54,558 nt of DNA, taken from IMG/VR virus record IMGVR_UViG_3300013125_000008, positions 1 to 54,558 of that record; one strand, written 5' to 3'. The stretch comes from a virus. Numbering within the stretch: the first letter of the stretch is position 1; each line of letters begins with the position of its first letter. This document shows positions 1 through 46,281 of the stretch, piece by piece. A program made the translations under genes and the position numbers. A model generated the notes under the pieces. The model did no database searches, was not told the DNA's origin, and saw nothing but the letters and a program-made list of their open reading frames with translations.

Positions 1-645
1 CAAGACGGTAACCTTCACCGAATTGACGGTCCTGCTGCAGAATATGCAAGCGGTACTAAATTTTGGTATCAAAATGGTAAATGCCACCGAACTGACGGAC
101 CTGCTATAGAATGGGCTAACGGTGATAAAGAATGGTATCAAAATGGTAAACTTCACCGAACTGATGGTCCCGCTGTAGAATATGCAAGCGGTACTAAATT
201 TTGGTATCAAAATGGTAAATGTCACCGAACTGACGGACCTGCTATAGAATGGGCTAACGGTAATAAAGAATGGTACGCAAACAATAATGTTATCGGTAAA
301 AGTGATAACGGATTTACTGATGAAGATTTTGAAAAATGGAAACAAGAGAATCCGAATAAATTAGAAGTTACAGCAAATCTGTTAAATAAATTAAGCTGGG
401 CAGGACAAGCGGTAATAGATAGTCAAGTTATAAAAGATTCTTTAATTAGTGATATCCGTTCAAGTGTTGATGTTATTTTATCTTTCGATAATTATAAAAA
501 TGAGTCTTTTGACGAAAATCTGCACCGGCAAACAAAATTTCATAGCTTACTTTCAGATATATATGATTATTCTGTAGCAGATTTGCGAAAAGTAATGGAA
601 ATAGTGCGTCGAGAATTACAGAAGTTACCCATTACCATTTTGTAA
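1..645 (+). CDS. MORN/YwqK-like repeat protein, 3' part
   Basis: This reading frame is open from the first base of the window and ends at TAA 643-645, so its start lies upstream. The visible 214 residues begin with four 23-residue repeats of the type NGKxHRTDGPAxE(Y/W)A(S/N)G with a closing WYQN, which resemble MORN_2/YwqK antitoxin-type repeats. A non-repetitive, mostly helical, charged tail of about 115 residues follows. Units 1 and 3, and units 2 and 4, are nearly identical, so a two-unit block was duplicated recently. Repeats of this kind usually form beta-hairpin stacks that bind other proteins or surfaces. The gene sits just upstream of the portal gene, but no function can be assigned. 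The repeat call is fairly sure; any toxin-antitoxin role would be speculation. Confidence 0.75.
   Translation, partial: QDGNLHRIDGPAAEYASGTKFWYQNGKCHRTDGPAIEWANGDKEWYQNGKLHRTDGPAVEYASGTKFWYQNGKCHRTDGPAIEWANGNKEWYANNNVIGKSDNGFTDEDFEKWKQENPNKLEVTANLLNKLSWAGQAVIDSQVIKDSLISDIRSSVDVILSFDNYKNESFDENLHRQTKFHSLLSDIYDYSVADLRKVMEIVRRELQKLPITIL
7..282 (+). repeat. Four tandem 69-base repeats (two 138-base blocks)
   Basis: The in-frame units start at 7, 76, 145 and 214, each 69 bases (23 codons) long. Units 1 and 3 differ at about five positions and units 2 and 4 at about six, while neighbouring units differ far more. The last duplication event therefore copied a 138-base pair of units. The array may continue upstream of the window. 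Confidence 0.9.
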
Positions 646-735
646 GATAGTCGAGTAATAAAGGATATTTAATTATGCTTGAGAGCAAAGTAAAGACTAT
701 CTATATTTATAATACAATGACTTTAAGGATATAGT

Positions 736-2769
736 ATGGGCTACCTAATTGGAAGCCAGTTTAAATTAGCAGAAGGTACGAATGAAGAGTTCAGGAAAGC
801 AAGAGCTTCCCAATTTAATAATTCAAGAGAACTTACTGAAGTTCCTATTGTTACTCCGCAGAGATCTACTGGAAATTTAGCAAACGCGCAAGCACGCCGG
901 CTTGTTACAGCGGGCGTTTCTGATGTTACTCGAACGGCTCCGATATTTAATGATCCTCGATATACTTCTTCTACATTATCCATCCCTACAGATGATAGAA
1001 CCCTTCATGGACTTTATAGATTTTTCGCAGAGACAGATCCGATTGTAGGCGCATCATTAAAATTATTAAGCGATTTGCCGCTTGCAGATTTGACTCTTGG
1101 ACAGTGCGAAGATTCCGGAGTTCAACAGCATTATGAAGATATGTGGGAAAGAATTAATGGCATTAAACTTTTGAGTGATATTACTCAAGAATATTACGAA
1201 ATCGGTAATGTTTATCCCTTTGGTGCTTTTAATGAAGCAGATTATATGTGGGATCAATTCGCGCTACTTAATCCTGATTACGTAAAGATTGAGAGTACGT
1301 GGATAAATGCTAAGCCTCTTATAAAACTTATTCCAGACGAAACGCTAAAAAGAGTTGTTCATACTCAAAGCCCTAGGTATATTTACGATCAGCTTCCTGA
1401 AGAGATGATACAATATGTACTATTTAATCAAGAAATTCCTCTCGAGCCTAATAATGTATTTCATGTAGCTCATGCTATGCGGCCATATGAATTAAAAGGT
1501 CGATCGCTTATAAAAAGAATTCTTAAGACGTTAATGCTGGAGGATCGATTTAATCAAGCAAATTTTGCTTTAGCTACTAGACATGCAGTACCTCTTACGA
1601 TTGTTAAAGTCGGAGATCCCGCTTCAGGATGGATACCGAAAGATGAAGAAATTAATGCTGTAAGGGATTTATTCGGAGCTTACGAGCTTGATCCAAATTT
1701 TAGTATTTTTTATCACTACGGAATAAATGTAGAGTATTATGGAAGTAATGGTAAAATGCTTCCGATTGGTCCAGAGCTTGATAGAATTTATAGATTAAAA
1801 TTTATCGGAATGGGAGTGCATGAGCAGCTTTTAGCCGGTCAGGGAGGTAGTTATAGTCAAGCTTATATTAACCTCGAAGTACAGAGGCAAAGATATCTTA
1901 ATTTACAATTAAAATTAGAAACGCTAGTTCATCAGGGCTGGTTTAAACCTGTAGCGGATTTATGCGGATTTTATCGTGTAAAGCAAGCTGTTGCTGGATA
2001 CGGCGGCGTTACTAAAAGCAAATGGGGCAGTACGATAAGTGCAAGTGAAGCGTACGCTAAGAATTTTAAATCTTTGCGGGATTTTCAAGATAATGCAGAA
2101 TTTCAAAAATTTACAATTTCTAAGACTGCAGAGAATAAAGGTACCGTCAGAGACTACGTATACCCGAAGCTTGATTGGGGAGCATTATCGGCGGCATCTG
2201 ATGAAAATTTGAAAAATTACATTAAGTGGCTTACAGATAAACGGCCGCATCTTGTAGATGATGGTACGCTTGCGCGACTTGCTAAGTTAGATAGAGATAC
2301 TCAAGAGAAAGCATATATTTCAGATCTTAGAAGAGCTCAGCAAAGAACAATTGCAATTTCAAAAGAGGGATTATTACCGTTCGTTGATAAAAAAACCGGA
2401 GGCGGCGCAGGAGATGGAGGCTTCGATCTCGGAGGATTAACCGGTGCAGATTTTAACGGCGGTACAATACCTATTGGAGATACTGCGGAATTAGGGATAG
2501 CGGAAGGGGGACCGCCGCCGTCGCCTATCGGAGAGGCCGGAGCTCCAGAAGCAGCTAATGGTAATGAACCAGCGGTAGGACTGTCATCATTATTTAATGA
2601 TCTTAGCAAAGAAGTTTATAGCTCTATTACGGAAGATGATATGTATTTTAGACGAGAAAATCATAAATTATCTACAAATCATGTAAACGTAATTAAAAAC
2701 TTAACTCCAGATCAGAAGCAAAATTTTGCTGCTATAATTAAAGAAATTGATAGAATTCAGGAAAGTTAA
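736..2769 (+). CDS. Portal protein
   Basis: This 677-residue protein is the probable portal, the dodecameric ring at one head vertex through which DNA is packaged and ejected. It has portal-like features: an acidic segment with LSDLPLADLTLG near residue 115, a clip/stem region with YYEIGNVYPFGAFNEAD, a long central segment with HAVPLTIVKVGDPASGW near residues 285-300, and a helical region rich in Q, L and Y (LEVQRQRYLNLQLKLETLVHQ) near 380-400. A Gly/Pro-rich linker at about 555-610 leads to a helical tail. AAGGA at 724-728 is a well-placed ribosome-binding site. The gene is followed by the protease-like gene after 6 bases, the usual portal-protease order. Terminase is not in the window. Confidence 0.75.
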   Translation: MGYLIGSQFKLAEGTNEEFRKARASQFNNSRELTEVPIVTPQRSTGNLANAQARRLVTAGVSDVTRTAPIFNDPRYTSSTLSIPTDDRTLHGLYRFFAETDPIVGASLKLLSDLPLADLTLGQCEDSGVQQHYEDMWERINGIKLLSDITQEYYEIGNVYPFGAFNEADYMWDQFALLNPDYVKIESTWINAKPLIKLIPDETLKRVVHTQSPRYIYDQLPEEMIQYVLFNQEIPLEPNNVFHVAHAMRPYELKGRSLIKRILKTLMLEDRFNQANFALATRHAVPLTIVKVGDPASGWIPKDEEINAVRDLFGAYELDPNFSIFYHYGINVEYYGSNGKMLPIGPELDRIYRLKFIGMGVHEQLLAGQGGSYSQAYINLEVQRQRYLNLQLKLETLVHQGWFKPVADLCGFYRVKQAVAGYGGVTKSKWGSTISASEAYAKNFKSLRDFQDNAEFQKFTISKTAENKGTVRDYVYPKLDWGALSAASDENLKNYIKWLTDKRPHLVDDGTLARLAKLDRDTQEKAYISDLRRAQQRTIAISKEGLLPFVDKKTGGGAGDGGFDLGGLTGADFNGGTIPIGDTAELGIAEGGPPPSPIGEAGAPEAANGNEPAVGLSSLFNDLSKEVYSSITEDDMYFRRENHKLSTNHVNVIKNLTPDQKQNFAAIIKEIDRIQES

Positions 2770-2775
2770 AAAAAA

Positions 2776-3783
2776 ATGATTGTAAAAGAATGTAGCCAAA
2801 TTGTAAGGTGCGTACCGTTACCAAAGCAGACATTTTCTGCTGAGCGACGAATTATACCAATAGATGATACGCATAGGTTATTGAGATTTCGCGCAATTGC
2901 AAATCTTTGTAAAGGATCGTTTAACGGAAATTACGATGGATTTCCTTATGAATATTTTGAAGACTCAACTCCTGGATATGGATATAAATCATTTATTGGC
3001 AAGCGAGCTCATCACGAGCATAACTCCGCTCTTGGCATTACCGGCTCAATCGGAGATTTGCCTGACGCGTTCTTAAATAAGTTTCTTTACCCTTCTTCGG
3101 TTCCACACAGAGATTGGAGTAAGTTAGGGGGTCGAGCAAACGCCAGTCTTCGACAATCTATTCTTGATCTGCCAGAGCAACGCGCGGGAGATATTGAAGT
3201 GTTAATGCGACTTGACACGACATTAACTAAGAATAGTTCTACAGATGCGGGTGTTCGAAAAGCGTTAGATCGAATACTGCGAGCGATTGATAATAAACAG
3301 AAATTATTTTGCTCGATGGGTACTAATGTTGAGTATTCTGTATGTTCAGCTTGTGGAACTAGCGCACGATTTGCTAAAGATTATTGCGACCATTTGCGGC
3401 ATCGTAAAGGCGCGATGATTGTAACGACAGCGAACAGTATAAGAGATTTGCTTGATAAAGATCTCCTTCGTCCCGAGTGGTTAAAGCATGTAGTAACTTC
3501 TTCTTTTGATGTAAAAGAAATTTTGAATGGTATTTCCAATAAGCCGGTTTCAGCGAGAGCTGGAGAAATAAATCATAAGCTTTCTTTTTTTGAGTTATCA
3601 ATAGTTGGAATGCCGGCGTACGCAGAAGCAGAAGTATTAGAAAAAATAGCAAGACAGCAGGATGAAGGTCATAAAGATTACATTCGTCGAATCGCTAAGA
3701 CTCTCGGAAGAGATGCTATAGTAGATCTTTACGAGATACTTCAAGAAGAAGGATTAATTTCATCAATGTGTAAGGTAGCTTAA
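2776..3783 (+). CDS. Putative prohead maturation protease with zinc-binding insert
   Basis: The 335-residue product follows the portal directly, where large phages place the protease that processes the prohead core and capsid. The sequence shows a histidine cluster (H79, H80, H82, in KRAHHEHN) followed by a Gly-rich strand, and a possible zinc site C179, C190-x2-C193 and C204-x-H206 (CSACG and YCDH). The stretch FFELSIVGMPAYAEAEVL near residues 270-290 resembles the late conserved strand of phage head-maturation proteases, where the substrate-binding sheet ends. I cannot point to a proven nucleophile, so the protease call rests on position and these local patterns. Its stop codon shares one base with the start of the next gene. 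Confidence 0.5.
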   Translation: MIVKECSQIVRCVPLPKQTFSAERRIIPIDDTHRLLRFRAIANLCKGSFNGNYDGFPYEYFEDSTPGYGYKSFIGKRAHHEHNSALGITGSIGDLPDAFLNKFLYPSSVPHRDWSKLGGRANASLRQSILDLPEQRAGDIEVLMRLDTTLTKNSSTDAGVRKALDRILRAIDNKQKLFCSMGTNVEYSVCSACGTSARFAKDYCDHLRHRKGAMIVTTANSIRDLLDKDLLRPEWLKHVVTSSFDVKEILNGISNKPVSARAGEINHKLSFFELSIVGMPAYAEAEVLEKIARQQDEGHKDYIRRIAKTLGRDAIVDLYEILQEEGLISSMCKVA

Positions 3784-4700
3784 TGAAACCGTTTAAAACT
3801 CTTTGGAAAGGTGATTGGGTAAGTGTTATATCTCCAGAAGGAGCCCCTTACGAAACTCTTCACGAGAAGGATATTATTTTATGTCTTCCTATTAAAGAAT
3901 TTGAAGACGGCCATAAAGAAGTCGGTATTAGAGAAGAGTATTGCCCGCCGTATTTTGTAAAAGATGCCGAGGGCGAAGAGCTTTATTACACTGTTCTCTC
4001 TGGAAAAATTGACGATGGTGAAACTCCAAAACAGACGTTAATAAGGGAGCTAAAAGAGGAAAGCGGAGTAGTTTTCAGTAATCCGTCAATATTAACGCTT
4101 TATGAGAATCTTCCAATCTGTAAAAGTACGACAATGAGAGGATATTGTTATATTATCTCCGGGAAAGAATTTACAGAAAAAATTCCGAAAGGAGACGGAA
4201 CAGCGAATGAAAAGAGATCAAGAACAATTTGGGTGCCGATTAAAGAGCTTTCTAGTTATTTAGAGAAACCGAATATTGACGCTTTATTGTTTAGCCTGAT
4301 AAATTATGCAGCTCTAATCGTTGCTACACAATTTATAGATCGCAGCGAAGTTACGTCTGCATTACCTGCAAGTCCGTCGCGTCCGCCTCAAAGACCGGTC
4401 GAAAAAGGTGTAGTAGTTGATATGTATGAAGTAGAATATCCGGTACCCGCTAATTCATTAAAAGAAACGGAAGCGTTAGCTGAGCATCTGGACGAGCAAA
4501 ACGATTTTATAAATCAATATTTATTTCCTTCAACTTCTACAGAAGATGTGCTAGTTACGCTTCAGCAACGCGAAGAAGATAATGCCCCGGATAAACAGAA
4601 GGCTTTACGAAATCGATCGCAACCGATCGCCAAGCAAGCGTGGAGAGAAGTGCTAAGGCAGCTAGCTCCGCGAGTTACAGCTTCTTCGGCAAGGACGTAG
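3783..4700 (+). CDS. Nudix hydrolase
   Basis: A perfect Nudix box (G-x5-E-x7-R-E-L-x-E-E-x-G-V) runs from G74 to V96, so the protein should cleave a nucleoside diphosphate linked to another group, with Mg2+ or Mn2+ bound by the box glutamates. The Nudix fold occupies roughly residues 10-185. A charged, Pro-containing extension of about 110 residues follows, with no recognised domain. Its ATG overlaps the previous stop by one base, so it is translated with the protease-like gene. A Nudix enzyme inside a head-assembly operon is unusual. Possible substrates include ADP-ribose, NAD(H), dinucleoside polyphosphates or damaged nucleotides, and the sequence alone does not decide among them. Confidence 0.9.
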   Translation: MKPFKTLWKGDWVSVISPEGAPYETLHEKDIILCLPIKEFEDGHKEVGIREEYCPPYFVKDAEGEELYYTVLSGKIDDGETPKQTLIRELKEESGVVFSNPSILTLYENLPICKSTTMRGYCYIISGKEFTEKIPKGDGTANEKRSRTIWVPIKELSSYLEKPNIDALLFSLINYAALIVATQFIDRSEVTSALPASPSRPPQRPVEKGVVVDMYEVEYPVPANSLKETEALAEHLDEQNDFINQYLFPSTSTEDVLVTLQQREEDNAPDKQKALRNRSQPIAKQAWREVLRQLAPRVTASSART

Positions 4701-4726
4701 AATTTAAATTTGTTAGAGGAAAGTCA

Positions 4727-6694
4727 ATGAGCGTAAATTTTAAATCTGTAGTTAATAAGACGCTGGAAAATACTATTTTTGAAAATTACGTAACTATAAT
4801 AGTAGATTTAGACAAAACGCTTTGGGACTGTACTTCTGTAGACGGCAGCGAGATCGGAGCTTTTGAGACAGAATCTCCGTACGAGCTTAAAGCCCCTTCT
4901 GTAATTATTGATATAAAAGGCAATATTATTCGGCTACAAGACGGCGTGCGAGATGTTTTAAAAACTTTAGATGCCGCCAATAAGAATGTCGGTATTGTAA
5001 GTAGTGGAGAAAAGCTTGTAGATTTAGCTAACAGACTTGGTTTACCTTTCGAGGCGCAACCTTCTGTAATGCTTTTAAAAAAATTCGATATTTTTCAGTA
5101 TTTTAATTACGATATAATACTTAAGGCTTTTGCTGATAAAGGAAAATACGTAAGATCTAAAGGAAAAACGTTATTTATTGATGATAATCAAGAGCAATTA
5201 GATTCGGTAATTCGACATGCAGAAGAAAATAATTTAGATCTTGATGTTCTTTCAAGGACGGCTTTTAAGAATTGGAAAGAGTTATTAGAAGGGCGCAAGC
5301 GGCAAAGTAAGTTAAGCTGGGCGCTTTCTGCCGTACCTACTGCCGATTTTGACGACAATTTAGCATTATCAAAACTAAAACATTATAATCTTTATTTTAT
5401 TAATTACGTACGTTGTAGAGACGGTCATCCTTACTGGAATGTGCTTTTGTATAAAGATTTTGAAGGGGAAGCTTTTGATTTATCCGCAGTCGATAAACTT
5501 TTAATAGTAAAAACAAGAATTTTTAGTAAGGCTGAAGCAGAGCAATTAGCTAAAGCTGCTGCATGGTCGGATACATCCAGAGGAGCGTACGTGGTTAGTT
5601 ATAGTGCTAAGACTATAACTTCAGCTACTGCAGGACAGGCGCAAGCTTTGTTTATTTGTTTTTATGTTCCTGATGTTATTAAAGGCCGGTTAGGAGCTAT
5701 TAAAGATTTAGAAGATAATCTGCACGTTACTCTATTGTATTATCCAGATGCTAAAATTACAGACGATCAACTTGAAGAATTAAAACAGGCAATAGCAAAG
5801 TTTTATGAACATTGCGAATTGAGTATAAAATGTTCTTTTACGGGAATTGCTGAATTTGATAGTAAAGATACTCCAGTAGTCGCGTTAGTTAATATGACGA
5901 ACGGCGCAGAATTTCGAACTCGATTAAAAGAAATTGTAGCTTCAGTGATAACTTTAAAAGAGAGCGATTATGATTTTATTCCTCATGTGACACTTTCTTA
6001 TACTTCACAGAAGATTGATTCTGGAATACTAAAGGATATTAATTGGATTCCTGAACATATCGGAATGAATGTTAATAAAGATAATTATTTTAGTTATAGT
6101 AAATCTGGGAAAGTAATCGACGGAAAAAATGAGGAAAGTATTCGAGTTGCGCAGAAAGGGGTAAGCGGTACTGAGATAAAGAAAATATCTTTTAAGAAAT
6201 TAGCGTTAGATAAAGAATATTGGCTTACTTATATTCCGCAATACGTTAGATCTGCCGTTAAAGGCGGCTTAGCTACAGGACTTGGAAATAAAGATAATTT
6301 AGCTAAAGACGCAATTGATCGATTACTTTTAGAAATTCCGGATAGTATTAAGCAAGAGAGGGAATTTATATCGATATTCAATGATGCTATTGAAAAATTA
6401 GAAGCAGACGGTTATGGAGATTATTTTGCTCCCCGTTCTCTTAGTTTTAATACTCCGCCTTCTGACGATGCCGGAGATCAAGCAGTTAATCAATTTGGAG
6501 AAGCAATTGATGAAGATAGCGGCGAGATAAATTTTAATATCTATACGTCTCCAGAAACTTCGATATATCAATCTCCTTATCAAAAAGAAAGATCTATAGA
6601 TACACTTTTAGATCAGTTACACGAAGCTTTAGTCATCGGGGATTACGAGACGGCAACTCAGCTTAAAGTAGAAATAAAAAAGCTTTCTAGCTAA
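4727..6694 (+). CDS. HAD phosphatase fused to 2H (LigT-like) phosphoesterase
   Basis: The product has 655 residues from ATG 4727, which is preceded by AGAGGA. An upstream ATG at 4640 would overlap the Nudix gene by 61 bases and lacks such a site. Residues 20-185 form a HAD phosphatase of the MDP-1 type: motif I VDLDKTLWD (D27, D29), a Ser motif near S92-S93, and the acidic motif FIDDN (D152, D153). Residues about 305-430 hold two H-x-T-L motifs, HVTLLYY (H333) and HVTLSYT (H420), which define 2H phosphoesterases acting on 2',3'-cyclic phosphate or 2'-5' linkages. The remaining 220 residues are unassigned. The combination suggests end-healing of RNA or removal of a nucleotide signal, which is an inference. 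Confidence 0.8.
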   Translation: MSVNFKSVVNKTLENTIFENYVTIIVDLDKTLWDCTSVDGSEIGAFETESPYELKAPSVIIDIKGNIIRLQDGVRDVLKTLDAANKNVGIVSSGEKLVDLANRLGLPFEAQPSVMLLKKFDIFQYFNYDIILKAFADKGKYVRSKGKTLFIDDNQEQLDSVIRHAEENNLDLDVLSRTAFKNWKELLEGRKRQSKLSWALSAVPTADFDDNLALSKLKHYNLYFINYVRCRDGHPYWNVLLYKDFEGEAFDLSAVDKLLIVKTRIFSKAEAEQLAKAAAWSDTSRGAYVVSYSAKTITSATAGQAQALFICFYVPDVIKGRLGAIKDLEDNLHVTLLYYPDAKITDDQLEELKQAIAKFYEHCELSIKCSFTGIAEFDSKDTPVVALVNMTNGAEFRTRLKEIVASVITLKESDYDFIPHVTLSYTSQKIDSGILKDINWIPEHIGMNVNKDNYFSYSKSGKVIDGKNEESIRVAQKGVSGTEIKKISFKKLALDKEYWLTYIPQYVRSAVKGGLATGLGNKDNLAKDAIDRLLLEIPDSIKQEREFISIFNDAIEKLEADGYGDYFAPRSLSFNTPPSDDAGDQAVNQFGEAIDEDSGEINFNIYTSPETSIYQSPYQKERSIDTLLDQLHEALVIGDYETATQLKVEIKKLSS

Positions 6695-6984: not shown

Positions 6985-8127
6985 ATGAAATTTTCATTTA
7001 AAAATTTATTTAAATCTTCAATGGATGATAATATTGTAACAGAGCCTGGAGAAAGCTTTATACCTACATCGAATGGGTACCAAACTCCAGATGATATTGT
7101 GTCAGATCTTACTTATAGAAATTATGCGTATAATAGAGATATTTCTCCAGACATTACCCCTGAAAGGTGGGAAAAAATTTATGGTCCTGTAACACAAGCT
7201 ATGGAGAAACGTTATCAGAAAGAAAAGGCAGCAGGCGCTACATTTTCATCAATGTATTATCCGCCAGAAGGTGTAAATAAAATTTATAAACGTTCTTGGC
7301 GACGTGTCCTAAGCGGTGTTGATTTTAAGCAAAAACCTGATGGTACCGTGGAGATTGATGTTTTTAAAAATGTTCCCGAGACTCCCGAATATTTTGATGC
7401 AGAAGATACGAATTCTGCAGCGCCGGCTAGTAGTAATCCGCCGCAAAGTACTAATCAAAAAGCGGCAGCTACTATTCCGAATGATGAAGATTTAAAATTT
7501 GCACTTGCCTCTCTTCCGCAAGATGCTATCGAAGTGCTTAAGCGGTATTTTGTTGAAAATCTTCCATCTTCAATGCCGTTACAAGAATTGCAAGAATTAT
7601 CAGAATCTGATGCGGCTGTTAAGGTTATTTTATCTACAATCGAAACTTCACTTGCATTACCGTCTGCAAAAGAGAGATTGCGTAAATTATTTTATCAGCA
7701 ATATCCAAGCGTTTCAAATGATACTGTAGCCAATTGGAGAAATACGCTAGAAACACTCGCGGATTTAAATTTTAAGCAGAAAACAGACGGTACGGTAGAA
7801 ATTCATAGTGATATTGAAGTAAATGATGATACAGCACAGCCAATTCCCGCGGCAAATACCGTGGCTAAACCGGTGTCTCCCGCTCCGCAAGAAGCTAATG
7901 AACAAGCGGTTTCTACTTCTTCTCGATCGCTCTCTCCAAAAGAGTGGGTGATTAAAAAACAAGGCAATTTAGTTCTTAAAGGACGTGAATGCGCTGACGC
8001 TTGCGGAATTGTAATCGAGAAAGCCGGCAAAGTAGTTGATTTTGAACGAATTCTAAAGAACGGACATTCTTGGAGAGAACTTATTAACCAAGCTGTATGG
8101 GAAGAAAGATTTCAGTCTGTAAAGTAA
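6985..8127 (+). CDS. Hypothetical head-region protein with repeated FKQK-DGTVEI element
   Basis: The start chosen is ATG 6985, preceded by AAAAGGA with a suitable spacer; the earlier in-frame ATG at 6961 lies inside the previous gene. The 380-residue product has no recognised domain. It contains SWRRVLSG followed by DFKQKPDGTVEID near residues 110-130, and the related NFKQKTDGTVEIH near residues 263-275, so a short element is duplicated. Between and after these are Ala/Pro-rich, probably disordered linkers (about 148-168 and 285-315). The C-terminus, from KEWVIKK onward, looks like a small folded domain. Its place between the portal-protease genes and the capsid genes suggests a minor head or core protein. 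Confidence 0.6.
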   Translation: MKFSFKNLFKSSMDDNIVTEPGESFIPTSNGYQTPDDIVSDLTYRNYAYNRDISPDITPERWEKIYGPVTQAMEKRYQKEKAAGATFSSMYYPPEGVNKIYKRSWRRVLSGVDFKQKPDGTVEIDVFKNVPETPEYFDAEDTNSAAPASSNPPQSTNQKAAATIPNDEDLKFALASLPQDAIEVLKRYFVENLPSSMPLQELQELSESDAAVKVILSTIETSLALPSAKERLRKLFYQQYPSVSNDTVANWRNTLETLADLNFKQKTDGTVEIHSDIEVNDDTAQPIPAANTVAKPVSPAPQEANEQAVSTSSRSLSPKEWVIKKQGNLVLKGRECADACGIVIEKAGKVVDFERILKNGHSWRELINQAVWEERFQSVK

Positions 8128-8151
8128 TTTTAGTTAGTAGAAAAGAATTTA

Positions 8152-8367
8152 ATGAGTCTTAATTTTGATAAATTTGAAGAAGAGTTTAAGAAACTCAATT
8201 TTGAAGATTTCGCTGTGCCGGATAAGCCTTTCGGGCTTAGAACAGCGTTTGAAAATCGTTGTATAGAGATTACCACTTCATTACAAAAACGTTTAGCTAA
8301 ATCACAGAAAGCACTCCTGGAGCAGGAATTGCAAGTTTTACAAGCGGCTCTCAAAGAGATTTCTTGA
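8152..8367 (+). CDS. Small helical hypothetical protein
   Basis: The 71-residue product is acidic at its N-terminus (FDKFEEEFKKLNFEDF) and strongly helical at its C-terminus, with a heptad-like run of Leu from about residue 45 (LQKRLAKSQKALLEQELQVL) that could form a coiled coil. No family is recognised. The ribosome-binding site is weak (GAAAAGAA). It is the last gene before the promoter at 8388-8416 and so probably ends the upstream transcription unit. A role as a small assembly or scaffold-associated factor would fit its position but is not shown. Confidence 0.55.
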   Translation: MSLNFDKFEEEFKKLNFEDFAVPDKPFGLRTAFENRCIEITTSLQKRLAKSQKALLEQELQVLQAALKEIS

Positions 8368-11860: not shown

Positions 11861-12442
11861 ATGCCTACGTACAGCACAGCACAGCAATATCACATAAATT
11901 TACTAAGAAGCGAGCTCAGCATGCGAGCAACCAAAGCTTCTGGATCCTCTTTTATTTTATCTGCCAAATTAGGAGACGACGAACTCTGGGAAGATCTTCG
12001 TTTAGGATTAAATATGTTTAATTCTACTCCGCCTATCGTAACAACTTTTTCTTTCGCTGATTTGTATTCTGCCTCAGCTTCCGCAGCACTTAGCGGGGAG
12101 GATCCTAATGCTCCAGCGCTAGAAGACACAGTATCTATTTATACTACAGCCGTAATGATGTGCGCTCAATTTTTTTCAGGCATTAGATTACAATGGTTTG
12201 AAGCAGGTAAGCATTTTAGATATAACGATAATGGTATTTCTATTGAGCGCGTTAAGCAGGCAGATTATCAAAATATTATATCTAGCCAAATTCTTCAATT
12301 TATAACTGCCGTATTGCCGCTGATAAGAAAGACAATGGCGTTTGAGCAATTTAGTGCTAAAGGTCAATTTTCAGGAACAATAGCTTTTCCTCGATCTCTT
12401 ACAAGGGGATTGCGCGGAACGCGTCTAGGAGCGGGAAGTTAA
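11861..12442 (+). CDS. Putative neck / head-completion protein
   Basis: The 193-residue product follows the capsid gene and its terminator, where head-completion or adaptor proteins are usually encoded. It has an N-terminal helix, a DDELWEDLRLGLNMFNSTPP segment (about 39-58) that looks like a conserved phage structural patch, mixed helices in the middle, and a Gly/Arg-rich end. No signature motif identifies it. The ribosome-binding site is poor. The stop shares one base with the start of the receiver-domain gene, so the two are translationally linked. Confidence in the gene is high, in the function low. Confidence 0.45.
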   Translation: MPTYSTAQQYHINLLRSELSMRATKASGSSFILSAKLGDDELWEDLRLGLNMFNSTPPIVTTFSFADLYSASASAALSGEDPNAPALEDTVSIYTTAVMMCAQFFSGIRLQWFEAGKHFRYNDNGISIERVKQADYQNIISSQILQFITAVLPLIRKTMAFEQFSAKGQFSGTIAFPRSLTRGLRGTRLGAGS

Positions 12443-12930
12443 TGAGAAAAACCTTAAATATTTTAGTTCTAGAAGATGATAAACCTTCTAGAGTAGTATA
12501 TCAAAAGTACTTACAGTCGACTTTTTCATCGTGTATAATTGCGGCGAGTATAGAAGAAGCTTTAGCGGTATTGTCTTTTCAGCGCCCGGATATTTATTTA
12601 GTGGATTTAAGTATAGGAGATTCACGACCGTCGGTATCGCAAAGCTATAAAGGCCTTGAATTTATTCAAACTGTAAGATCGTTTGACGAAGACGCGATTA
12701 TTATAATAGTAACTGCACACGCGGCATTTGTATTTGAATATCCGGATTTTTGTTCGGCGTATAATGTAAGTAAAGTGCTAACAAAGCCGGTAGATAAAGA
12801 AATTTTATTAAAAAATTTACAAGAATTATCAGTTGAGTATTTATCAAGAAAGCTAGCGCATCTTTCAATGATAGCAACGAGCGCGGAAGAAGATACGTTA
12901 GATTTTATTAAAAAACAAGAAAGTGTATAA
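12442..12930 (+). CDS. Stand-alone response-regulator receiver (REC) protein
   Basis: Residues 5-128 form a complete receiver domain: the acidic pocket E11-D12-D13 (LEDDK), the phospho-acceptor position D55 (YLVDLS), T91-A92 (VTAHA) and K115-P116 (LTKPVDK). All residues needed for Asp phosphorylation are present. About 30 further residues form a helix, and no DNA-binding or enzymatic output domain follows, so it resembles single-domain CheY/Spo0F-like proteins. It starts inside the stop of the neck-like gene and is followed by the PAS protein. No histidine kinase was seen in the window, so a host kinase or a distant phage gene would have to supply phosphate. Its place in a structural-lysis operon is very unusual. 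Confidence 0.9.
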   Translation: MRKTLNILVLEDDKPSRVVYQKYLQSTFSSCIIAASIEEALAVLSFQRPDIYLVDLSIGDSRPSVSQSYKGLEFIQTVRSFDEDAIIIIVTAHAAFVFEYPDFCSAYNVSKVLTKPVDKEILLKNLQELSVEYLSRKLAHLSMIATSAEEDTLDFIKKQESV

Positions 12931-12937
12931 AGTAAAT

Positions 12938-13438
12938 ATGTTAACTGCAACGTCCCCTTCGGCAATAAGAAAGAGCGCACAGTATGCAGACGAGTTGAAA
13001 GAAAAAATTGCATCTTTGCGGACAATGCGAGAAGATATTCGAGGTATCCGCCAATTATTTTCTTCTGCAAATGAAGAATTTCAATTATTATCGAATATTT
13101 TTAATAACATTCCAGCAATGCTCTTTCTTAAAGACACTCAAAATCGCTTATTAAAAGTAAATGATTATTTTTGTCAAGTTACCGGTTTGCGCCGAGAAGA
13201 TGTAGAAAAAAAAGCATTATCAGAGATTGCTACAGATCAGTTAGGGCTAGTCGAACATTACGCATTAAACGATTATGATGTAATTTACAAAAAGCAGCCG
13301 AAAAAAGGCATTATTGAAAAATTGTTTAGTAATCCCTCTATCACATTACGTACTGATAAATTTCCCGTTATCGTTGATGGAAAAGTCATCGGAATTTTTG
13401 GTATTAGTGTAGATATTTCCGATCAATTAAATTCTTGA
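12938..13438 (+). CDS. Stand-alone PAS-domain protein
   Basis: The ATG at 12938 gives 166 residues; an in-frame GTG at 12923 would overlap the receiver gene by 8 bases. Residues about 10-50 are helical and charged, probably a coiled coil that dimerises the protein. Residues about 50-162 form a PAS fold with the typical opening IFNNIPAMLFLKDTQNRLLKVND and VTGLRREDV, and a PAC-like ending IVDGKVIGIFGISVDISDQ. PAS domains bind small molecules or partners and sense redox, light or metabolites. No kinase, cyclase or DNA-binding output is attached. Directly after a receiver gene, it looks like the sensor half of a split signalling module. Confidence 0.85.
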   Translation: MLTATSPSAIRKSAQYADELKEKIASLRTMREDIRGIRQLFSSANEEFQLLSNIFNNIPAMLFLKDTQNRLLKVNDYFCQVTGLRREDVEKKALSEIATDQLGLVEHYALNDYDVIYKKQPKKGIIEKLFSNPSITLRTDKFPVIVDGKVIGIFGISVDISDQLNS

Positions 13439-13443
13439 GTGTA

Positions 13444-13881
13444 ATGGAAGAAAAATATGTAGACCGGCTATTTGATTTGCTGGAAAAAAAAATTGTAAGC
13501 ATGACTGAAATTATTGAAGATTTCAGCGAACGGGTTGTGCAAATAGAAAAAAATATGATTATCGTAACTAAAGACGTAGAAGTTTTAGTTAACGAACAGA
13601 AAAATCATTTGAGCGGCTGTCCCGTTAATAAAAAAGAATTTGATGCTGCTCTTAATGAAGCGTTAGAAATTAAAGGTATTAAATTACCTTTTTTGCCTGC
13701 CGTAACTGAAAGCGTCGTAGAAAAAATTGTAAATGCGGCAGTAGAGTTAAAATTTGCGAAGCAGCCAGCAGAAAGACTTAAACAAAACTTAAGTAAGACG
13801 CAGCTGCTATCAGCTATTCTTCTTATCTTTACTGCTGTAGGCTCATTAATAGTTTCAATTATATCATTGCTATTAAAGTAA
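13444..13881 (+). CDS. Coiled-coil protein with C-terminal membrane anchor
   Basis: From ATG 13444 the product has 145 residues (an in-frame TTG at 13435 would overlap the PAS stop). Residues 1-60 have heptad-like helix character. A short CPVNKKEF segment and a central helical region follow. The C-terminal 25 residues (QLLSAILLIFTAVGSLIVSI) form one transmembrane helix, so the protein is probably tail-anchored with its bulk in the cytoplasm. It sits between the PAS gene and the holin-like gene and may be a lysis accessory, antiholin-like or signal-transfer protein. No family is recognised. Confidence 0.6.
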   Translation: MEEKYVDRLFDLLEKKIVSMTEIIEDFSERVVQIEKNMIIVTKDVEVLVNEQKNHLSGCPVNKKEFDAALNEALEIKGIKLPFLPAVTESVVEKIVNAAVELKFAKQPAERLKQNLSKTQLLSAILLIFTAVGSLIVSIISLLLK

Positions 13882-13913: not shown

Positions 13914-14321
13914 ATGAAAAAATTTATCGTGTTCGCTGTCGTAATAATGTTCGGTATAATTCCTGTAATAGCTCAAGTAGGCACAACAAATACTTTAAAA
14001 CCGCTCGATATTCCGGCGGGATTTAATTGGTTATATATCGTATTTTTTGCACTTGGCATGCTGCTGCATTATAGTATAAAAGTTTTTCACACGCTCGGAA
14101 AAACGAAATTTTTGAATTCGTTATATAGAAATTTTTCAAATTGGTTTATAAATAAATATCACTATACTGCACTTTCGGGTGCGGCTGCTGCTATCATAGG
14201 AATTGCTACTGCGTACGAAATGAATATTAATTTTTCAATAATAAATTTGCTTGGAGCTGTAATATCTATAATGGCTGGTTATATAGGAGATTCGATGTTT
14301 AACGCAGGGGAAATTAAATAA
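13914..14321 (+). CDS. Putative holin (multi-span membrane protein)
   Basis: The 135-residue product starts with a signal-like hydrophobic segment (FIVFAVVIMFGIIPVIAQ), has a membrane helix at about 38-57 (NWLYIVFFALGMLLHY), a basic amphipathic stretch, and two further hydrophobic helices at about 83-102 and 106-127. ACGGAG precedes the ATG. It overlaps the transglycosylase gene by one base. Small size, several membrane spans and immediate position before a murein-degrading enzyme suggest the holin that opens the inner membrane at lysis. No sequence-family signature confirms this. Confidence 0.55.
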   Translation: MKKFIVFAVVIMFGIIPVIAQVGTTNTLKPLDIPAGFNWLYIVFFALGMLLHYSIKVFHTLGKTKFLNSLYRNFSNWFINKYHYTALSGAAAAIIGIATAYEMNINFSIINLLGAVISIMAGYIGDSMFNAGEIK

Positions 14322-14869
14322 TGAGTTTTTCAAAAGAGCAGGTATTTGCTGTATGCGATAAGCTTGCTTCAAATTATAATTTCGAAGCGTCTTTGATTAA
14401 AGCTCTTTGCCTTCAAGAGGGTGGAAAAAAGAAAGATCCGCTAAGTAAGGAAAAATGGGCATTTGCGCCCGATAGAGCAAGATTAGAGCAAGGTTATTAT
14501 ATTTCTTATGTTGAAAATAAGCAGGCCTTAGCTACAACTACAGAAATTTTATTAGCAGCAAGCTACGGCGTTACTCAGATGTTAGGAGATTCTCTTCGAC
14601 AATTAGAATTTTTTGAGTGGTGGTTTAGCGAACAGCTTCCCGAGATTAAAACTCTTCTTGGAAATCCCTATAGCGAAGTCGCTGTTCCGAAAGCTATTAA
14701 TTGGTACTGTGAACACCTTCAAGCACAAGTAGAGTGGGGATGTAAATGGCTAGCGCGAAAAAGAGATCGAGCTCACGGAGATATTGTAAAGATGCTTGGA
14801 TATTGGAACGGGGACACTTCCGGAGCGTACGCTAATGAAGTATTAGCAAAACAGAAGAGCTTAGTATGA
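14321..14869 (+). CDS. SLT-type lytic transglycosylase, likely endolysin
   Basis: The 182-residue product resembles soluble lytic transglycosylases: a helix with the probable catalytic glutamate in KALCLQEGG (E27), the GVTQMLG segment near residue 90 corresponding to the G-L-(M/Q)-Q-(I/M/L) motif, and a C-terminal NGDTSGAYANEVL resembling the usual N-x-G-x-x-x-x-Y-x-x-x-V motif. Such enzymes cleave the MurNAc-GlcNAc bond. There is no signal peptide, so export would depend on a holin, and the holin-like gene overlaps it upstream by one base. The spanin-like gene overlaps it downstream by four. This arrangement supports an endolysin rather than a tail-borne enzyme. Confidence 0.75.
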   Translation: MSFSKEQVFAVCDKLASNYNFEASLIKALCLQEGGKKKDPLSKEKWAFAPDRARLEQGYYISYVENKQALATTTEILLAASYGVTQMLGDSLRQLEFFEWWFSEQLPEIKTLLGNPYSEVAVPKAINWYCEHLQAQVEWGCKWLARKRDRAHGDIVKMLGYWNGDTSGAYANEVLAKQKSLV

Positions 14870-15375
14870 AATACGTAAAGTATGTAGCAGCCGGTATACT
14901 AATAGGATTTATCTTATTGCTGTACGTCGACGGCTGTAAGAAAGATAAGATAATAAGTGAAAAAGACGTTCGTATTGCTCAGTTAGATTCAATTCTTACT
15001 GTTTTTAAAGAGCATGGTGATACAACGTACGTTTATAGTAAAGGAAAAGATTCAATTATTACTAAGCATATTCCTGTACATGATTCTATAGCGATAAAAA
15101 CAGGCATATTCTTGGATACGACTATTATAAAAGGTCAGCATTCAGTTCATGTTATTATTGATTCTTTACTAACGCAAATTTTGCTAAATTGTAAAGATAG
15201 CGTAAAAGAAAGCTATAGAGTAGACACACTAAAAATTGAAATTCCGAAACTTATTCCAGTTACGCTGCCTCCTCTACCAGTAGAAGTAGAATGGTATAAT
15301 ACTATGCCTGCAGGAGTAGTTTATGGAGTTTCTGCGGTTCTCGTAATACTTAAACTTAAAATTTTAGGTATTTAG
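14866..15375 (+). CDS. Putative unimolecular spanin (u-spanin)
   Basis: The 169-residue protein has an N-terminal hydrophobic segment ending in a lipobox-like V21-D22-G23-C24, a periplasm-suited middle region rich in beta-type and charged residues (about 25-145), and a C-terminal hydrophobic helix (AGVVYGVSAVLVILKLKI). An outer-membrane lipid at one end and an inner-membrane helix at the other is the layout of u-spanins such as T1 gp11, which fuse the two membranes in the last lysis step. The Asp at lipobox position -2 is atypical, so an N-terminal membrane anchor is the alternative. It overlaps the transglycosylase gene by 4 bases. Confidence 0.55.
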   Translation: MKYVKYVAAGILIGFILLLYVDGCKKDKIISEKDVRIAQLDSILTVFKEHGDTTYVYSKGKDSIITKHIPVHDSIAIKTGIFLDTTIIKGQHSVHVIIDSLLTQILLNCKDSVKESYRVDTLKIEIPKLIPVTLPPLPVEVEWYNTMPAGVVYGVSAVLVILKLKILGI

Positions 15376-15377
15376 TA

Positions 15378-16223
15378 ATGAATCCAATTTACGATGAATA
15401 CGATTACGAGCTCGGAATAGAGCCAGAGATTATCGATTATGTAAAAGAATCTCATGTAATAGAAAGTCGCATTTCATCGACGCCTTGTTATCTTGTTTTT
15501 CATAGAGCTACCGGCTCTGCAATTGGCAGCAGCTCCTCTCCTTTAGCTATGCCTTCGTTTTATGAAACGTTTCCGTTTAATAAATCTATAATTTGGAATG
15601 GCGGAGTAAATTATCCAGATATTTTAGATTACTTATCTACACTAACGGTTATTAAAGACTCAACCACTATTATGACAAAGGTAGTGGAGGTGGAAGATAT
15701 TGTAGTAGCTACAGAATATAGTGTAATACAACGCAAGGATCTTATTCCTCCTCGCGTAGAACTTGCTTTTCATCCTACTGTTACATCTTCTTCACTTTCT
15801 TATTATTTTGAAACTTTAGAGATAGGAACAAGCGCTGAGAGGTTTAAGAGAGGCGCGACGGCAGCGCAAAGTCTGCACGGGTGGACTCAATATTTATCGC
15901 CTTATAGCGATAGCATGATCGGCTATAATCAAATTCTTATTAGAATGCCTCTTACAACTCGAGATCTTATTATTAATGAAGAGGGGCGAGTAATGATGGA
16001 AGAAAATCAGAGCTGGATGATTTGGGAGCCTTACGTAGCAGATGGAGATATGATAATCGTGCCGTCCGGAAGCACGGCGAGCGGCAGAGAAGAGAGGTAT
16101 GAAATAATCAATAAGCAAGACTCTTTGATGCAAGGTCAGCTAGTTTCTCAGAGATTTAAACTAGAATTTTTAGAATTTAGCGATGTAAGATATAATATTG
16201 CAATTTCCACGGTTTATCCTTAA
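15378..16223 (+). CDS. Putative neck / connector protein
   Basis: This 281-residue, beta-rich protein begins 2 bases after the spanin-like stop and overlaps the following gene by one base. It has no transmembrane segment and no recognised motif. The composition (many Ser, Thr, Tyr and Ile, and paired strands such as YNQILIRMPLTTRDLIINEEGRV) is that of phage structural proteins. It lies just before the tail-terminator-like gene and the sheath, where myoviruses often keep neck or head-tail joining genes. Function is assigned by position only. Confidence 0.4.
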   Translation: MNPIYDEYDYELGIEPEIIDYVKESHVIESRISSTPCYLVFHRATGSAIGSSSSPLAMPSFYETFPFNKSIIWNGGVNYPDILDYLSTLTVIKDSTTIMTKVVEVEDIVVATEYSVIQRKDLIPPRVELAFHPTVTSSSLSYYFETLEIGTSAERFKRGATAAQSLHGWTQYLSPYSDSMIGYNQILIRMPLTTRDLIINEEGRVMMEENQSWMIWEPYVADGDMIIVPSGSTASGREERYEIINKQDSLMQGQLVSQRFKLEFLEFSDVRYNIAISTVYP

Positions 16224-26952: not shown

Positions 26953-27582
26953 ATGTCTGCTTACATTATATCAAATTTTGTAAAAACTAAAGATTTTCGG
27001 TATACCGAAGACTTAAAATACGTAATCTTACACCATACAGCGACTTCGGGAAGCAATAGCGGAGAAGCTATTAATACCGCTGCAACTTTTTATGATGATC
27101 ACGGATCTCCTTATGATATAATTATTAATAGCGATGGAAAAATAGATCTTACAAGTAGGTGGATGCAAGCGAGAGATTCAAAACAATATCGAAAAAACAT
27201 TTTTACAAGAGAAATTCTTAATTATCCGAGACATTTTATCGCCGGTATTGGCATGGACGAATTTCAACGATTATACTCAATTCATATAGCTGTTGTTAGA
27301 AACTGTAATAATCAAACAGTAACGCATTTTCAAATAATATCTTTAAATAGAGTACTTAATTTATTAAAAGAGCAGCTTGCACTTACTGATATATATTTTC
27401 ATTCCGAGCTTGAAAATACTTCCTGTCCTGGCCGCTATTTTCCAGATAAGAATATATTAATTTATAATCCTGCGCGCTCCGGCCTGTCCACTGCGCAGAC
27501 CGAAGCTCAACCTATCGTTCCGGTAGTTATATCTACTGGTTGGGGCTTTAATTATGCTAATACGTATGGAAATAATCTTTAA
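26953..27582 (+). CDS. N-acetylmuramoyl-L-alanine amidase (Amidase_2/PGRP type)
   Basis: Residues about 20-170 form a zinc amidase of the T7-lysozyme family. The zinc ligands are H27 (in LHHTAT), H150 and C158, and H150-x7-C158 (HSELENTSCPG) has exactly the family spacing. The enzyme cuts the bond between MurNAc and L-Ala of peptidoglycan. It has no signal peptide and lies between the hub and spike genes, so it is more likely a tail-borne enzyme for entry than the lysis enzyme. The C-terminal 40 residues are an unassigned linker. Confidence 0.8.
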   Translation: MSAYIISNFVKTKDFRYTEDLKYVILHHTATSGSNSGEAINTAATFYDDHGSPYDIIINSDGKIDLTSRWMQARDSKQYRKNIFTREILNYPRHFIAGIGMDEFQRLYSIHIAVVRNCNNQTVTHFQIISLNRVLNLLKEQLALTDIYFHSELENTSCPGRYFPDKNILIYNPARSGLSTAQTEAQPIVPVVISTGWGFNYANTYGNNL

Positions 27583-29804: not shown

Positions 29805-30377
29805 GTGGAATTTTTAAATATTGTCGGCGCCGCGGATCGCGTAATAGAAATCGCAGAAACCTACGTAGGCGTTAAAGAGACGGGAAGCAATCGCGGAGAT
29901 AAAATAGACGAAATTGAGAAAATGTTCGGGCTGCTCGGACAGCCGTATTGCGCAATGTTTGTGCTTTATTGTATAGCGAAAGCTTATCCGAGAGCGGATA
30001 TAATAAAAACAGCTTCTTCTCAGACGTTATACGCTTGGGCAGATAAGAAAAAATTTACGTATAGCGATCCGAAATTATTATCTCCGGGGGATATAGTTAT
30101 TTGGAGAAAGTTCAAGCTGTGGCAAGGCCATGTCGGTTTAGTTACGTCAGCATTAAAGACTGTCAATTTATCTGTTTCGGGACAGGTTGAAGTTGTTTCT
30201 CCTCAGTTTACAACAATTGAAGGCAATACTGCAAATTCTGATTTTGGAAATCAGCGAGAGGGTGACGGAATTTATAAACGTATTAGATACGCGAAAAAGC
30301 TAGATTTTGCAGTAGATAATTTTTACTTACGCGGATTTATCAGTCTTACTAGCTTATTACAAAATAAGCCTGCCTGA
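29805..30377 (+). CDS. CHAP-type cysteine peptidase (peptidoglycan hydrolase)
   Basis: Translation probably starts at GTG 29805, which is preceded by AAGGAG with a normal spacer. The 190-residue protein has the CHAP triad order: C49 (PYCAMF), H109 (GHVGLV) and E139 with N141 (EGNT). ETGSNRGDKI and SPGDIVIW flank it as in known CHAP proteins. Such enzymes cut peptide bonds or the amide link in peptidoglycan. It sits in the baseplate gene cluster with no signal peptide, so a virion-associated role in entry is likely. It is the second wall-degrading enzyme in the tail block. Confidence 0.8.
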   Translation: MEFLNIVGAADRVIEIAETYVGVKETGSNRGDKIDEIEKMFGLLGQPYCAMFVLYCIAKAYPRADIIKTASSQTLYAWADKKKFTYSDPKLLSPGDIVIWRKFKLWQGHVGLVTSALKTVNLSVSGQVEVVSPQFTTIEGNTANSDFGNQREGDGIYKRIRYAKKLDFAVDNFYLRGFISLTSLLQNKPA

Positions 30378-39643: not shown

Positions 39644-39972
39644 AAAATTATGTAATAATTCGTGCTACCGCAACAACTTCGACCGTAATTGCAACTAAGC
39701 TTACTAAAGCCGCAGCTCTTTCTGCTGTAAGAGCAATGCAAGCTCAAGCGTTGCAGCTTAAAAGAGATCTCGCGCAATATCAACAAGCCGAGACCGCGTT
39801 ATCTTCTAAACAGTTCGCTTTACTGCAAGCTAAATTTATTAAAAAATATAAAGATCAAATAATTCCCTCCGCCGCGCCTTTTATTTTCTTACCGCTTATG
39901 TTAAAGGCAAAGCTCGGCGAATTAAAAGGTATGTATACAGTAGTAGCAGCAGAAATTATGGAGATACAATGA
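39640..39972 (+). CDS. Small helical protein starting at TTG
   Basis: The likely start is TTG 39640, which overlaps the previous stop by 4 bases and is preceded by AAAGG (39628-39632) with a 7-base spacer; an ATG at 39586 would reach deep into the previous gene. The 110-residue product (MKNYVIIRATATTS...) is mostly helical, with a Gln/Ala/Leu-rich middle (VRAMQAQALQLKRDLAQYQQ) that may form a coiled coil and a hydrophobic stretch around APFIFLPLMLKA. It overlaps the glycosyltransferase start by 4 bases. No family is recognised. Confidence 0.55.
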   Translation: MKNYVIIRATATTSTVIATKLTKAAALSAVRAMQAQALQLKRDLAQYQQAETALSSKQFALLQAKFIKKYKDQIIPSAAPFIFLPLMLKAKLGELKGMYTVVAAEIMEIQ

Positions 39973-41198
39973 TAAAGTTATTAATGGTAGCAGACGATAT
40001 ACGTTATTTCAGCGGAGTGGCAAATCAAGCGCGTATGTTATTAAAAGGTCTTTTATCTACTGGTAATTATGAAATCATGGAGATCGGTTCTTCTACATAC
40101 AAGCATCCTCCAAAGCTTGTTGAATTCGAGGGAATTCAAATATTACCCACGGTCGATCACGATGATCCAAATATTTTTCGTTCTGCGCTATTATCTTTTA
40201 AGCCTGACGTAGTCGTAGTTTTCGGAGATCCGAGATTCTTTCACAGGCTATTCTTACTGGATCGAGATATCCGCACTTCCGCAAAATTTATACTATGGCA
40301 TGCATGGGATAACGCTCCTGTTCCTTATTTTAATCGTAAATTTTATGAGTCTGTTGATCAATTAGTAATGATTTCTAATTTTTCTTATCAATTAATAAAA
40401 CCATTCGCAGAGCGGTTTGTGCCTATTGATTTTATTCCTCACGGATACGATAGTCAAGAGTTTTTTCCATTACCCGTCGAGGAGAGGAATAAAGAGATAA
40501 ATACATTATTAAATGTTGTCGGGTTTAAAGCTTTAGATAAGCCGTTTTTCGTCGGTTGGAATAATAGAAACCAAGATCGGAAGCGTCCGGGCACGGTACT
40601 CGAAGCTTTTGGAAAATTTCAACAAACTCATCCCGATGCTTTACTCTTATTGCACACATTGCCGAAAACGATCGAGGGTATTGATATCATTACTTTTTTA
40701 GAAGAAACTGCAATTGCTCCTTCCTCTTCCGTGATTTTCTTTCCGGCAATTTTGCCTTCGCAAGCAATGAATTCGTTTTATAATATAGCTGACGTTACAT
40801 TAAATATTGCATTTAACGAAGGCTTTGGTTTAAGTGTAGGAGAAAGCTTGACAGCGGGTACTCCCGGGATCGTTGTTTCTACGGGAGGGATGTCAGAGCA
40901 AATGACAGACGGTAAGCAAGTATTTGGTGAGTTGCTGCCGCCCTCTTTAAGAAATCTCAGCGGCACGGTAGCAGAGCCGTATCTTTATTGTGACTATGTT
41001 TCAGTAGATGAAATAGTTTCCGCACTTGAGCGTGTTTATAATAATAAAGATCGACAGGCTTTAGGACTTGCCGGTCGCGAGTTTATAACTCGCACTTATT
41101 CAAAAGATATGATGATAGCAAAATGGAATGATTTATTGCAGAAATTGCTTACAACTCCTACTACGTATGTTCCATTCTCTTTAACAAAGGTGCTATAG
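39969..41198 (+). CDS. GT4-type glycosyltransferase
   Basis: This 409-residue protein has the GT-B layout. The N-terminal Rossmann-like domain starts with IKLLMVADDIRYFSGVANQARML and includes PDVVVVFGDPRFF (about 79-91). The C-terminal domain has FFVGWNNRNQDRKRPG (about 193-208) and the retaining-enzyme E-x7-E motif, E284 to E292 (NEGFGLSVGESL), which binds the sugar nucleotide. It should transfer a sugar from a nucleotide donor to a glycan or protein acceptor. It starts a run of glycan genes with 0-4 base junctions. Donor and acceptor are unknown. Confidence 0.85.
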   Translation: MIKLLMVADDIRYFSGVANQARMLLKGLLSTGNYEIMEIGSSTYKHPPKLVEFEGIQILPTVDHDDPNIFRSALLSFKPDVVVVFGDPRFFHRLFLLDRDIRTSAKFILWHAWDNAPVPYFNRKFYESVDQLVMISNFSYQLIKPFAERFVPIDFIPHGYDSQEFFPLPVEERNKEINTLLNVVGFKALDKPFFVGWNNRNQDRKRPGTVLEAFGKFQQTHPDALLLLHTLPKTIEGIDIITFLEETAIAPSSSVIFFPAILPSQAMNSFYNIADVTLNIAFNEGFGLSVGESLTAGTPGIVVSTGGMSEQMTDGKQVFGELLPPSLRNLSGTVAEPYLYCDYVSVDEIVSALERVYNNKDRQALGLAGREFITRTYSKDMMIAKWNDLLQKLLTTPTTYVPFSLTKVL

Positions 41199-42407: not shown

Positions 42408-42703
42408 TATTAGAAAAATCAATATTAACTGCAGAAGATATGCTCATAACGCAGCTTGGATTATTATCTATTCAAGAAATTCTTTCCAGCGTTAAGTTAG
42501 AGGAGTATAATAATAGGTTGCTAACTTCTTTAGTTGAATTAGAAGCCGCCCGACTTGCTGTTATTCCGATTCGAGAAAAGCCGGAGCTGCAACTTGATAT
42601 GGAGAGAGTTAAAGATTACGTAACTATATTAACTACGGCGCTAGCTAAAGCAAACGAGGTAAAACTTATTTTTAATATGTGGAGAGGAGAAACTGTAGTA
42701 TGA
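42404..42703 (+). CDS. Small helical hypothetical protein
   Basis: It starts at GTG 42404, giving 99 residues and a 4-base overlap with the glycosyltransferase stop. The first in-frame ATG is at 42440, so the start is uncertain. The product is fully helical and Leu/Glu-rich with no hydrophobic anchor, so it is probably soluble and oligomeric. No family is recognised. Its stop overlaps the start of a 20-residue ORF by 4 bases. Confidence 0.5.
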   Translation: MILEKSILTAEDMLITQLGLLSIQEILSSVKLEEYNNRLLTSLVELEAARLAVIPIREKPELQLDMERVKDYVTILTTALAKANEVKLIFNMWRGETVV

Positions 42704-42762
42704 TTGTTTTTATTTGTAATAAGAAATTATTTATTATTGAACAAGAAAGGCGTAGTATATGA
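42700..42762 (+). CDS. Tiny ORF coupled at both ends
   Basis: ATG at 42700 overlaps the previous stop as ATGA. The frame encodes MIVFICNKKLFIIEQERRSI and stops with TGA 42760-42762, overlapping ATG 42759 of the methyltransferase again as ATGA. A 20-residue ORF that exactly bridges two genes this way may serve translational coupling more than make a useful peptide. The hydrophobic N-terminal half and basic end would also suit a small membrane peptide. Confidence 0.3.
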   Translation: MIVFICNKKLFIIEQERRSI

Positions 42763-43310: not shown

Positions 43311-43361
43311 AAAAATATGAACTTGCTAATATTTACAGAATTGATAAGGCGCTGAAACTTT

Positions 43362-45281: not shown

Positions 45282-45302
45282 TTATTTAATGTAGGAGCGC
45301 GT

Positions 45303-45965: not shown

Positions 45966-45977
45966 CAAGGAGTAATA

Positions 45978-46280: not shown

Positions 46281-46281
46281 C

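Follow-up and report, generated by a model that had tools for sequence, protein, structure and literature searches.

Small coiled-coil proteins with a C-terminal membrane segment, encoded upstream of a holin and an endolysin, represent the design of XhlA. In prophage PBSX, XhlA is a membrane protein that is required together with the holin XhlB and the endolysin XlyA (PMC6834076, PMC5589764). In phage T4, the holin T has a cytoplasmic antiholin, RIII (PMC8385771). A PAS protein is encoded by vibriophage VP882, in which VqmA combines a PAS domain with an HTH, binds DPO, and activates qtip and the lytic programme (PMC8284805). In jumbo phages, divergent receivers termed cRec are found in linkage with NAD/ADP-ribose enzymes or enzymes of RNA repair (Iyer et al. 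2021, PMC7824862).

The locus studied here lies in an IMG/VR virus record, linear and 54,558 bases long, which was analyzed whole and is referred to below as the window. It carries a receiver gene, a PAS gene and a gene for a tail-anchored coiled-coil protein, and the latter two recur together in two other phage contigs, L077 and L078. The tail-anchored proteins of all three phages share with XhlA a coiled coil and a C-terminal transmembrane segment (TM), and the L077 cassette contains an Amidase_3 gene; models of the XhlA and haemolysin families matched none of the three proteins. We know of no PAS partner for XhlA. The likeness to T4 RIII lies in the proposed mode of action, in which a soluble protein of the cytosol would act on a membrane lysis protein and set the lysis time. 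To our knowledge, RIII has not been described as a PAS protein, and a sequence relation to the window PAS protein is not expected. VqmA is a precedent for a phage-encoded PAS protein coupling a host-cell signal to lysis. However, VqmA is a DNA-binding transcription factor of a temperate phage, whereas the window PAS protein stands alone, in a late lysis cassette and beside a tail-anchored gene. Family searches found no HTH in the PAS proteins of the window, L077 or L078, which excludes a VqmA-type DNA-binding action for the window protein. Finally, the window receiver resembles cRec as a receiver-fold protein of a jumbo phage that lies outside two-component systems, but it matches PF00072 with the usual residues and adjoins lysis genes. 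The linkage typical of cRec was not found, as the neighbors of the receiver are lysis and structural genes and the NUDIX and 2H-type genes lie about 6 to 8 kb away.

Source of the window

A sheath-like gene, a baseplate J gene and the conserved synteny of the capsid region mark the window as part of the genome of a jumbo-type myovirus that is uncultured. The major capsid protein shares 42% identity with its counterpart in Bacillus phage G and 54-75% with homologues in uncultured contigs, which reach 194 kb in length. A profile search of genome contigs with the capsid alignment returned zero matches. Tentative hints of a Bacteroidota host come from the relatives of the PAS domain and from the spanin-like protein, judged by its style. 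Scans of the window for promoters and terminators gave no signal above chance level.

Several other genes of the window were recorded. Positions 48713-49363 encode a protein of the sigma-70 family in which regions 2 and 4 were both matched (E 1e-9 and 6.4e-14), with a class II ribonucleotide reductase gene downstream. At 4640-6694, a 684-aa protein combines a HAD-type phosphatase-like part with a 2H phosphoesterase-like part, the latter weakly resembling the anti-CBASS protein Acb1 (2_5_RNA_ligase2, E 3.6e-6; Acb1, E 1e-3), and a NUDIX protein (3783-4700) adjoins it. Further peptidoglycan hydrolases, Amidase_2 and CHAP, lie in the tail/baseplate region (26953-27582 and 29805-30377) and are probably virion associated. 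Glycosyltransferase, methyltransferase and epimerase genes occupy 39969-48617, between the baseplate and nucleotide-metabolism genes.

The receiver and PAS genes

The features of the locus and its counterparts are collected in Table 1. The receiver gene and the PAS gene predicted at 12442-13438 are both intact. The receiver start overlaps the stop of the neck-like gene (TAATG). PF00072 matched the receiver with 46.5 bits (cut-off, 30.2) over model positions 1-110 of 111. Alignment with cellular receivers placed the catalytic residues at the acidic pair E11/D12, the phospho-Asp D55, T91 and K115; D12, D55, K115 and P116 are invariant in the alignment, and T91 occupies a Thr/Ser position. The set of phosphorylation residues named in the original prediction was thus recovered for D55, T91 and K115, but the acidic pair had been given as D12/D13. 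Because the catalytic residues are intact, phosphate uptake by this protein is plausible. Stand-alone regulators of the CheY, DivK and CpdR type likewise consist of a single receiver domain with a phosphorylation site. In contrast to these, the window receiver is viral, has Val112 at the aromatic switch position (three before K115), carries an eight-residue insert after D55 and ends in a C-terminal tail of about 35 aa, which is probably helical.

As had been predicted, family searches found no output domain on the receiver, which consists of the domain and its short tail only, or on the PAS protein, and no histidine kinase or HATPase_c domain in the window. The receiver accordingly lacks the output domain on the regulator by which phage-encoded two-component systems are recognized. 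The absence of a kinase from the window says little about the genome, because the window is a 54.6-kb fragment of it. Searches with the receiver yielded few relatives: a single-sequence search of IMG/VR gave zero matches, matches in a phage collection (50,697 records) were weak and fell in unannotated Enterococcus and Listeria records, and a search of genome contigs returned only matches of 25-30%. The receiver was also absent from 22 other phage records (20 relatives of the window, L077 and L078); as a control, the search run on the relatives does recover the window's own receiver.

The likely start of the PAS gene is ATG 12938 (166 aa), 7 nt past the receiver stop; the alternative GTG 12923 would give 171 aa. 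PAS_4 (PF08448) matched with 35.2 bits (cut-off, 23.1), PAS_8 and PAS also scored above their cut-offs, and TIGR00229 sensory_box matched at E 2.2e-9, in agreement with the predicted coiled coil plus PAS domain. No ligand signature was recognized in the domain. Two AlphaFold2 models computed without an alignment reached pLDDT values of 36 and 41 and were unusable. A single-sequence search of IMG/VR with the PAS protein gave zero matches, and alignment queries were needed.

Table 1. Genes of the lysis-side slot in the window and of the PAS/tail-anchored pairs in L077 and L078
Feature	Location	Strand	Evidence
Conserved neck-like structural gene, upstream border of slot	11861..12442	+	57-67% identical homologues in most related contigs
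Stand-alone receiver (REC), 162 aa	12442..12930	+	PF00072, E 4.7e-12; residues by alignment
Coiled coil + PAS protein	12923..13438	+	PAS_4, E 1.6e-8
Coiled-coil protein, single C-terminal TM (tail-anchored design), 145 aa	13444..13881	+	TM at 125-143
Small membrane protein, three hydrophobic segments, holin-like by design	13914..14321	+	Hydropathy
Putative lytic transglycosylase or lysozyme-like endolysin	14321..14869	+	Sequence reading of the original prediction only
Spanin-like protein, N- and C-terminal hydrophobic segments	14866..15375	+	Hydropathy, by design
Conserved structural gene, downstream border of slot	15378..16223	+	Homologues in related contigs
PAS homologue, 153 aa, N-terminal coiled coil	L077:5887-6348		39% identity to window over 137 aa
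Tail-anchored homologue	L077:6338-6721		Similar to window 13444..13881 protein (0/1000 shuffles reach score)
PAS homologue, 145 aa, N-terminal coiled coil	L078:3738-4175		47% identity to window over 129 aa
Tail-anchored homologue	L078:4182-4493		Similar to L077 protein (0/1000 shuffles; BLASTP E 3e-5)

Recurrence of the PAS gene with a tail-anchored partner

An alignment of the PAS domain with its cellular relatives found L077, and an alignment including L077 then found L078. L077, siphovirus-like and 62 kb long, has a phrog_146 portal, and L078, T4-like and 21.6 kb long, has a phrog_2 terminase and a phrog_213 portal; beyond the genes described here, the only homologue of a window gene in either was one chance-level match. 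The PAS proteins of L077 and L078 are 48% identical to each other, and PAS-family models match both. All three phage PAS proteins carry the core motif LRTDKFP unchanged, and a DNA pattern for this motif matched L077, L078 and, by chance, one further contig (L083).

In each of the three phages, the gene after PAS encodes a coiled-coil protein of 103-145 aa with one C-terminal TM (the coiled coil was judged by reading), and the ends of the two genes overlap or nearly touch. In the window, the tail-anchored gene probably starts at ATG 13444, 5 nt past the PAS stop, consistent with the prediction that it follows within 6 bases. Similarity between the tail-anchored proteins was assessed with 1000 shuffles per pair that kept the composition of both segments. 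The window and L078 proteins were not similar above shuffles (396/1000). Given this result and the short coiled-coil nature of the proteins, homology across the three is indirect. A match of Rsbr_N to the window protein (E 0.0011) was under the family cut-off and was taken as coiled-coil noise.

The genes that follow the pair differ in the three phages. In L077, they encode two small TM proteins, then the Amidase_3 endolysin (E 1.9e-20) and lastly a spanin-like protein, together a complete lysis cassette. In L078, the pair is followed by one small hydrophobic protein that weakly resembles a holin (E 0.11), and no endolysin was found near the pair in this 21.6-kb contig. In the window, the original prediction had named a holin-transglycosylase-spanin set. 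The proteins encoded at 13914-15375 gave no convincing Pfam, PHROG, NCBIfam or PDB match, so these names describe design only; the call of lysis genes at this place is supported indirectly, by the relatives described below. None of the 50,697 records of the phage collection contained a relative of any phage PAS protein (window, L077 or L078), nor of the tail-anchored protein, the holin-like protein or the transglycosylase-like product of 14321..14869. Elsewhere in L078, two adjacent small proteins (7726-8366) both start with a related ESQL-type motif, and positions 1-3000, upstream of the PAS gene, show no clear genes and may be a tRNA cluster.

Neither a receiver nor a HATPase_c domain was found in L077 or L078. 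A search of other phages for the neighboring receiver and PAS genes had been proposed with the original prediction; this pair is absent from L077, L078 and all 20 relatives. We therefore rejected the receiver and PAS as a conserved pair, since the receiver was found only in the window among the phage records compared.

We also compared the phage PAS domains with cellular ones from 396 Bacteroidota and 399 Pseudomonadota genomes. The cellular domains were more distant than the phage ones, the closest in the tree being 40% identical to the window protein. After removal of four long-branch rows (three on a branch of 2.45, plus another long one), the PAS domains of the window, L077 and L078 formed one clade with support of 99/96; in a first tree that included these rows, the phage clade was unsupported. 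A single origin of the three phage PAS domains is thus likely, although not proven.

A variable slot in related phages

In related phages, homologues of the neck-like gene, whose product has no family match, sit downstream of the major capsid gene. The contents of the slot between this gene and the conserved structural gene at its downstream border vary among relatives. The slot is empty in L023 and L024, where the downstream gene directly follows the neck gene, while in L006, L009, L010 and L012 it comes after a variable insert. L018 and L019 have a Phage_holin_4_1 gene behind the neck gene, and L020 carries a near-copy. The slot of L006 holds an Amidase_2 gene and two coiled-coil TM genes, and that of L009 holds a Peptidase_M15_3 endolysin gene and one coiled-coil TM gene. 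Fibre-like and repeat proteins also occupy the slot in relatives. In L009 (14520-18818), long repeat proteins with LQNQITLVSGSL repeats were seen, as well as YITIYKRNGDTFTKLP repeats in two tandem gene copies, which are beta-propeller-like by eye.

Since the slot of relatives holds holin and endolysin genes, the reading of the window genes as a lysis cassette is supported by synteny. None of the 20 related records, all of phage G included, contained a receiver or PAS_4 domain. A HATPase_c match in a 665-aa frame of phage G is probably a topoisomerase. Relatives keep lysis genes at the slot without receiver or PAS, which argues that the PAS module is an optional accessory. The original prediction had named relatives that lack the pair and lyse unchanged as evidence against it; in a comparison of gene content, relatives with lysis genes at the slot and without either gene fit this description in part.

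Interpretation and alternative explanations

Judged from gene order and similarity in three members, all uncultured, the recurring unit is the PAS gene with its tail-anchored neighbor, a lysis-cassette module, and not the receiver-PAS pair. These comparisons give good support to a link between lysis and the PAS and tail-anchored genes. The receiver, seen once and placed just upstream of the PAS gene, looks added. We propose that a cytosolic PAS sensor acts on lysis via its tail-anchored partner, with an optional phosphorylation input, and we give this reading a probability of about 0.5. The two genes would constitute a sensory unit that phages insert into their lysis cassettes. The soluble coiled-coil PAS protein would bind an internal signal, either a small ligand or a redox cofactor, and would dock on its tail-anchored partner by way of the partner's cytosolic coiled coil. 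In the inner membrane, this partner would accompany the holin and either delay or trigger hole formation, and the PAS module would thereby tune the time of lysis. The receiver could be phosphorylated by a host kinase or by acetyl phosphate and provide an input to this complex of PAS and tail-anchored protein.

Other explanations give the receiver a larger part. The original prediction held that receiver and PAS jointly tap a host phosphorelay to time lysis. Host two-component systems are known targets of phage proteins such as PIT4 (PMC10714779), the window receiver has all catalytic residues, and the two genes stand back to back in one run with the cassette. However, the receiver is missing from L077, L078 and the 20 relatives, no histidine kinase was found in the window, and the PAS module recurs without a receiver. 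What stands of that proposal is the link of the PAS gene to lysis, through its recurrence and the L077 cassette; the pairing with the receiver is not conserved. Since the other PAS phages and the relatives lack a receiver, a tap of a host phosphorelay depends on one receiver with an intact site, and we consider it improbable. We are equally doubtful of a decoy or sink role, in which the receiver, alone or together with PAS, would drain or block signalling through host two-component systems, such as an envelope-stress response to the lysis proteins, and would lie on the lysis side only for late expression. A stand-alone receiver with an intact active site and no output domain would suit such a role, but the lysis-linked position would be late for host takeover, and the recurrent PAS/tail-anchored pair would be left unexplained.

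The remaining explanations deny the PAS protein a sensory function. It may be a scaffold or dimerization part of a membrane lysis complex, as a structural role alone is possible for small PAS proteins with a coiled coil, and no ligand signature was recognized. The strong conservation of the PAS core, LRTDKFP included, in three divergent members suggests more than a spacer, without implying ligand binding, and we regard a purely structural part as unlikely. PAS and receiver could also be passenger genes of a variable cargo slot without a lysis function. The slot is indeed highly variable, from empty in two relatives to filled with fibre-like and repeat proteins in others, but the same PAS/tail-anchored pair in unrelated phages, and beside the lysis genes of L077, would be unexpected for random cargo, which makes passenger status very improbable.

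Starting from the preferred reading, in which a PAS sensor acts on lysis via a tail-anchored partner, we more tentatively suggest a new class of lysis regulators. In this class, a PAS sensor and its tail-anchored partner, horizontally shared among unrelated phages, would gate the holin by host state, and the receiver would be a phosphorylation input added in the window phage. Literature searches, whose coverage left out most subscription journals, found no description of such a module. The cue by which a lytic phage times its burst is known in molecular detail for few systems, and the three unrelated phages described here provide a small, testable set of genes. If our reading is true, a portable PAS sensor wired to membrane lysis proteins, and not to transcription, would give phages a new means of reading the cell at the time of lysis.
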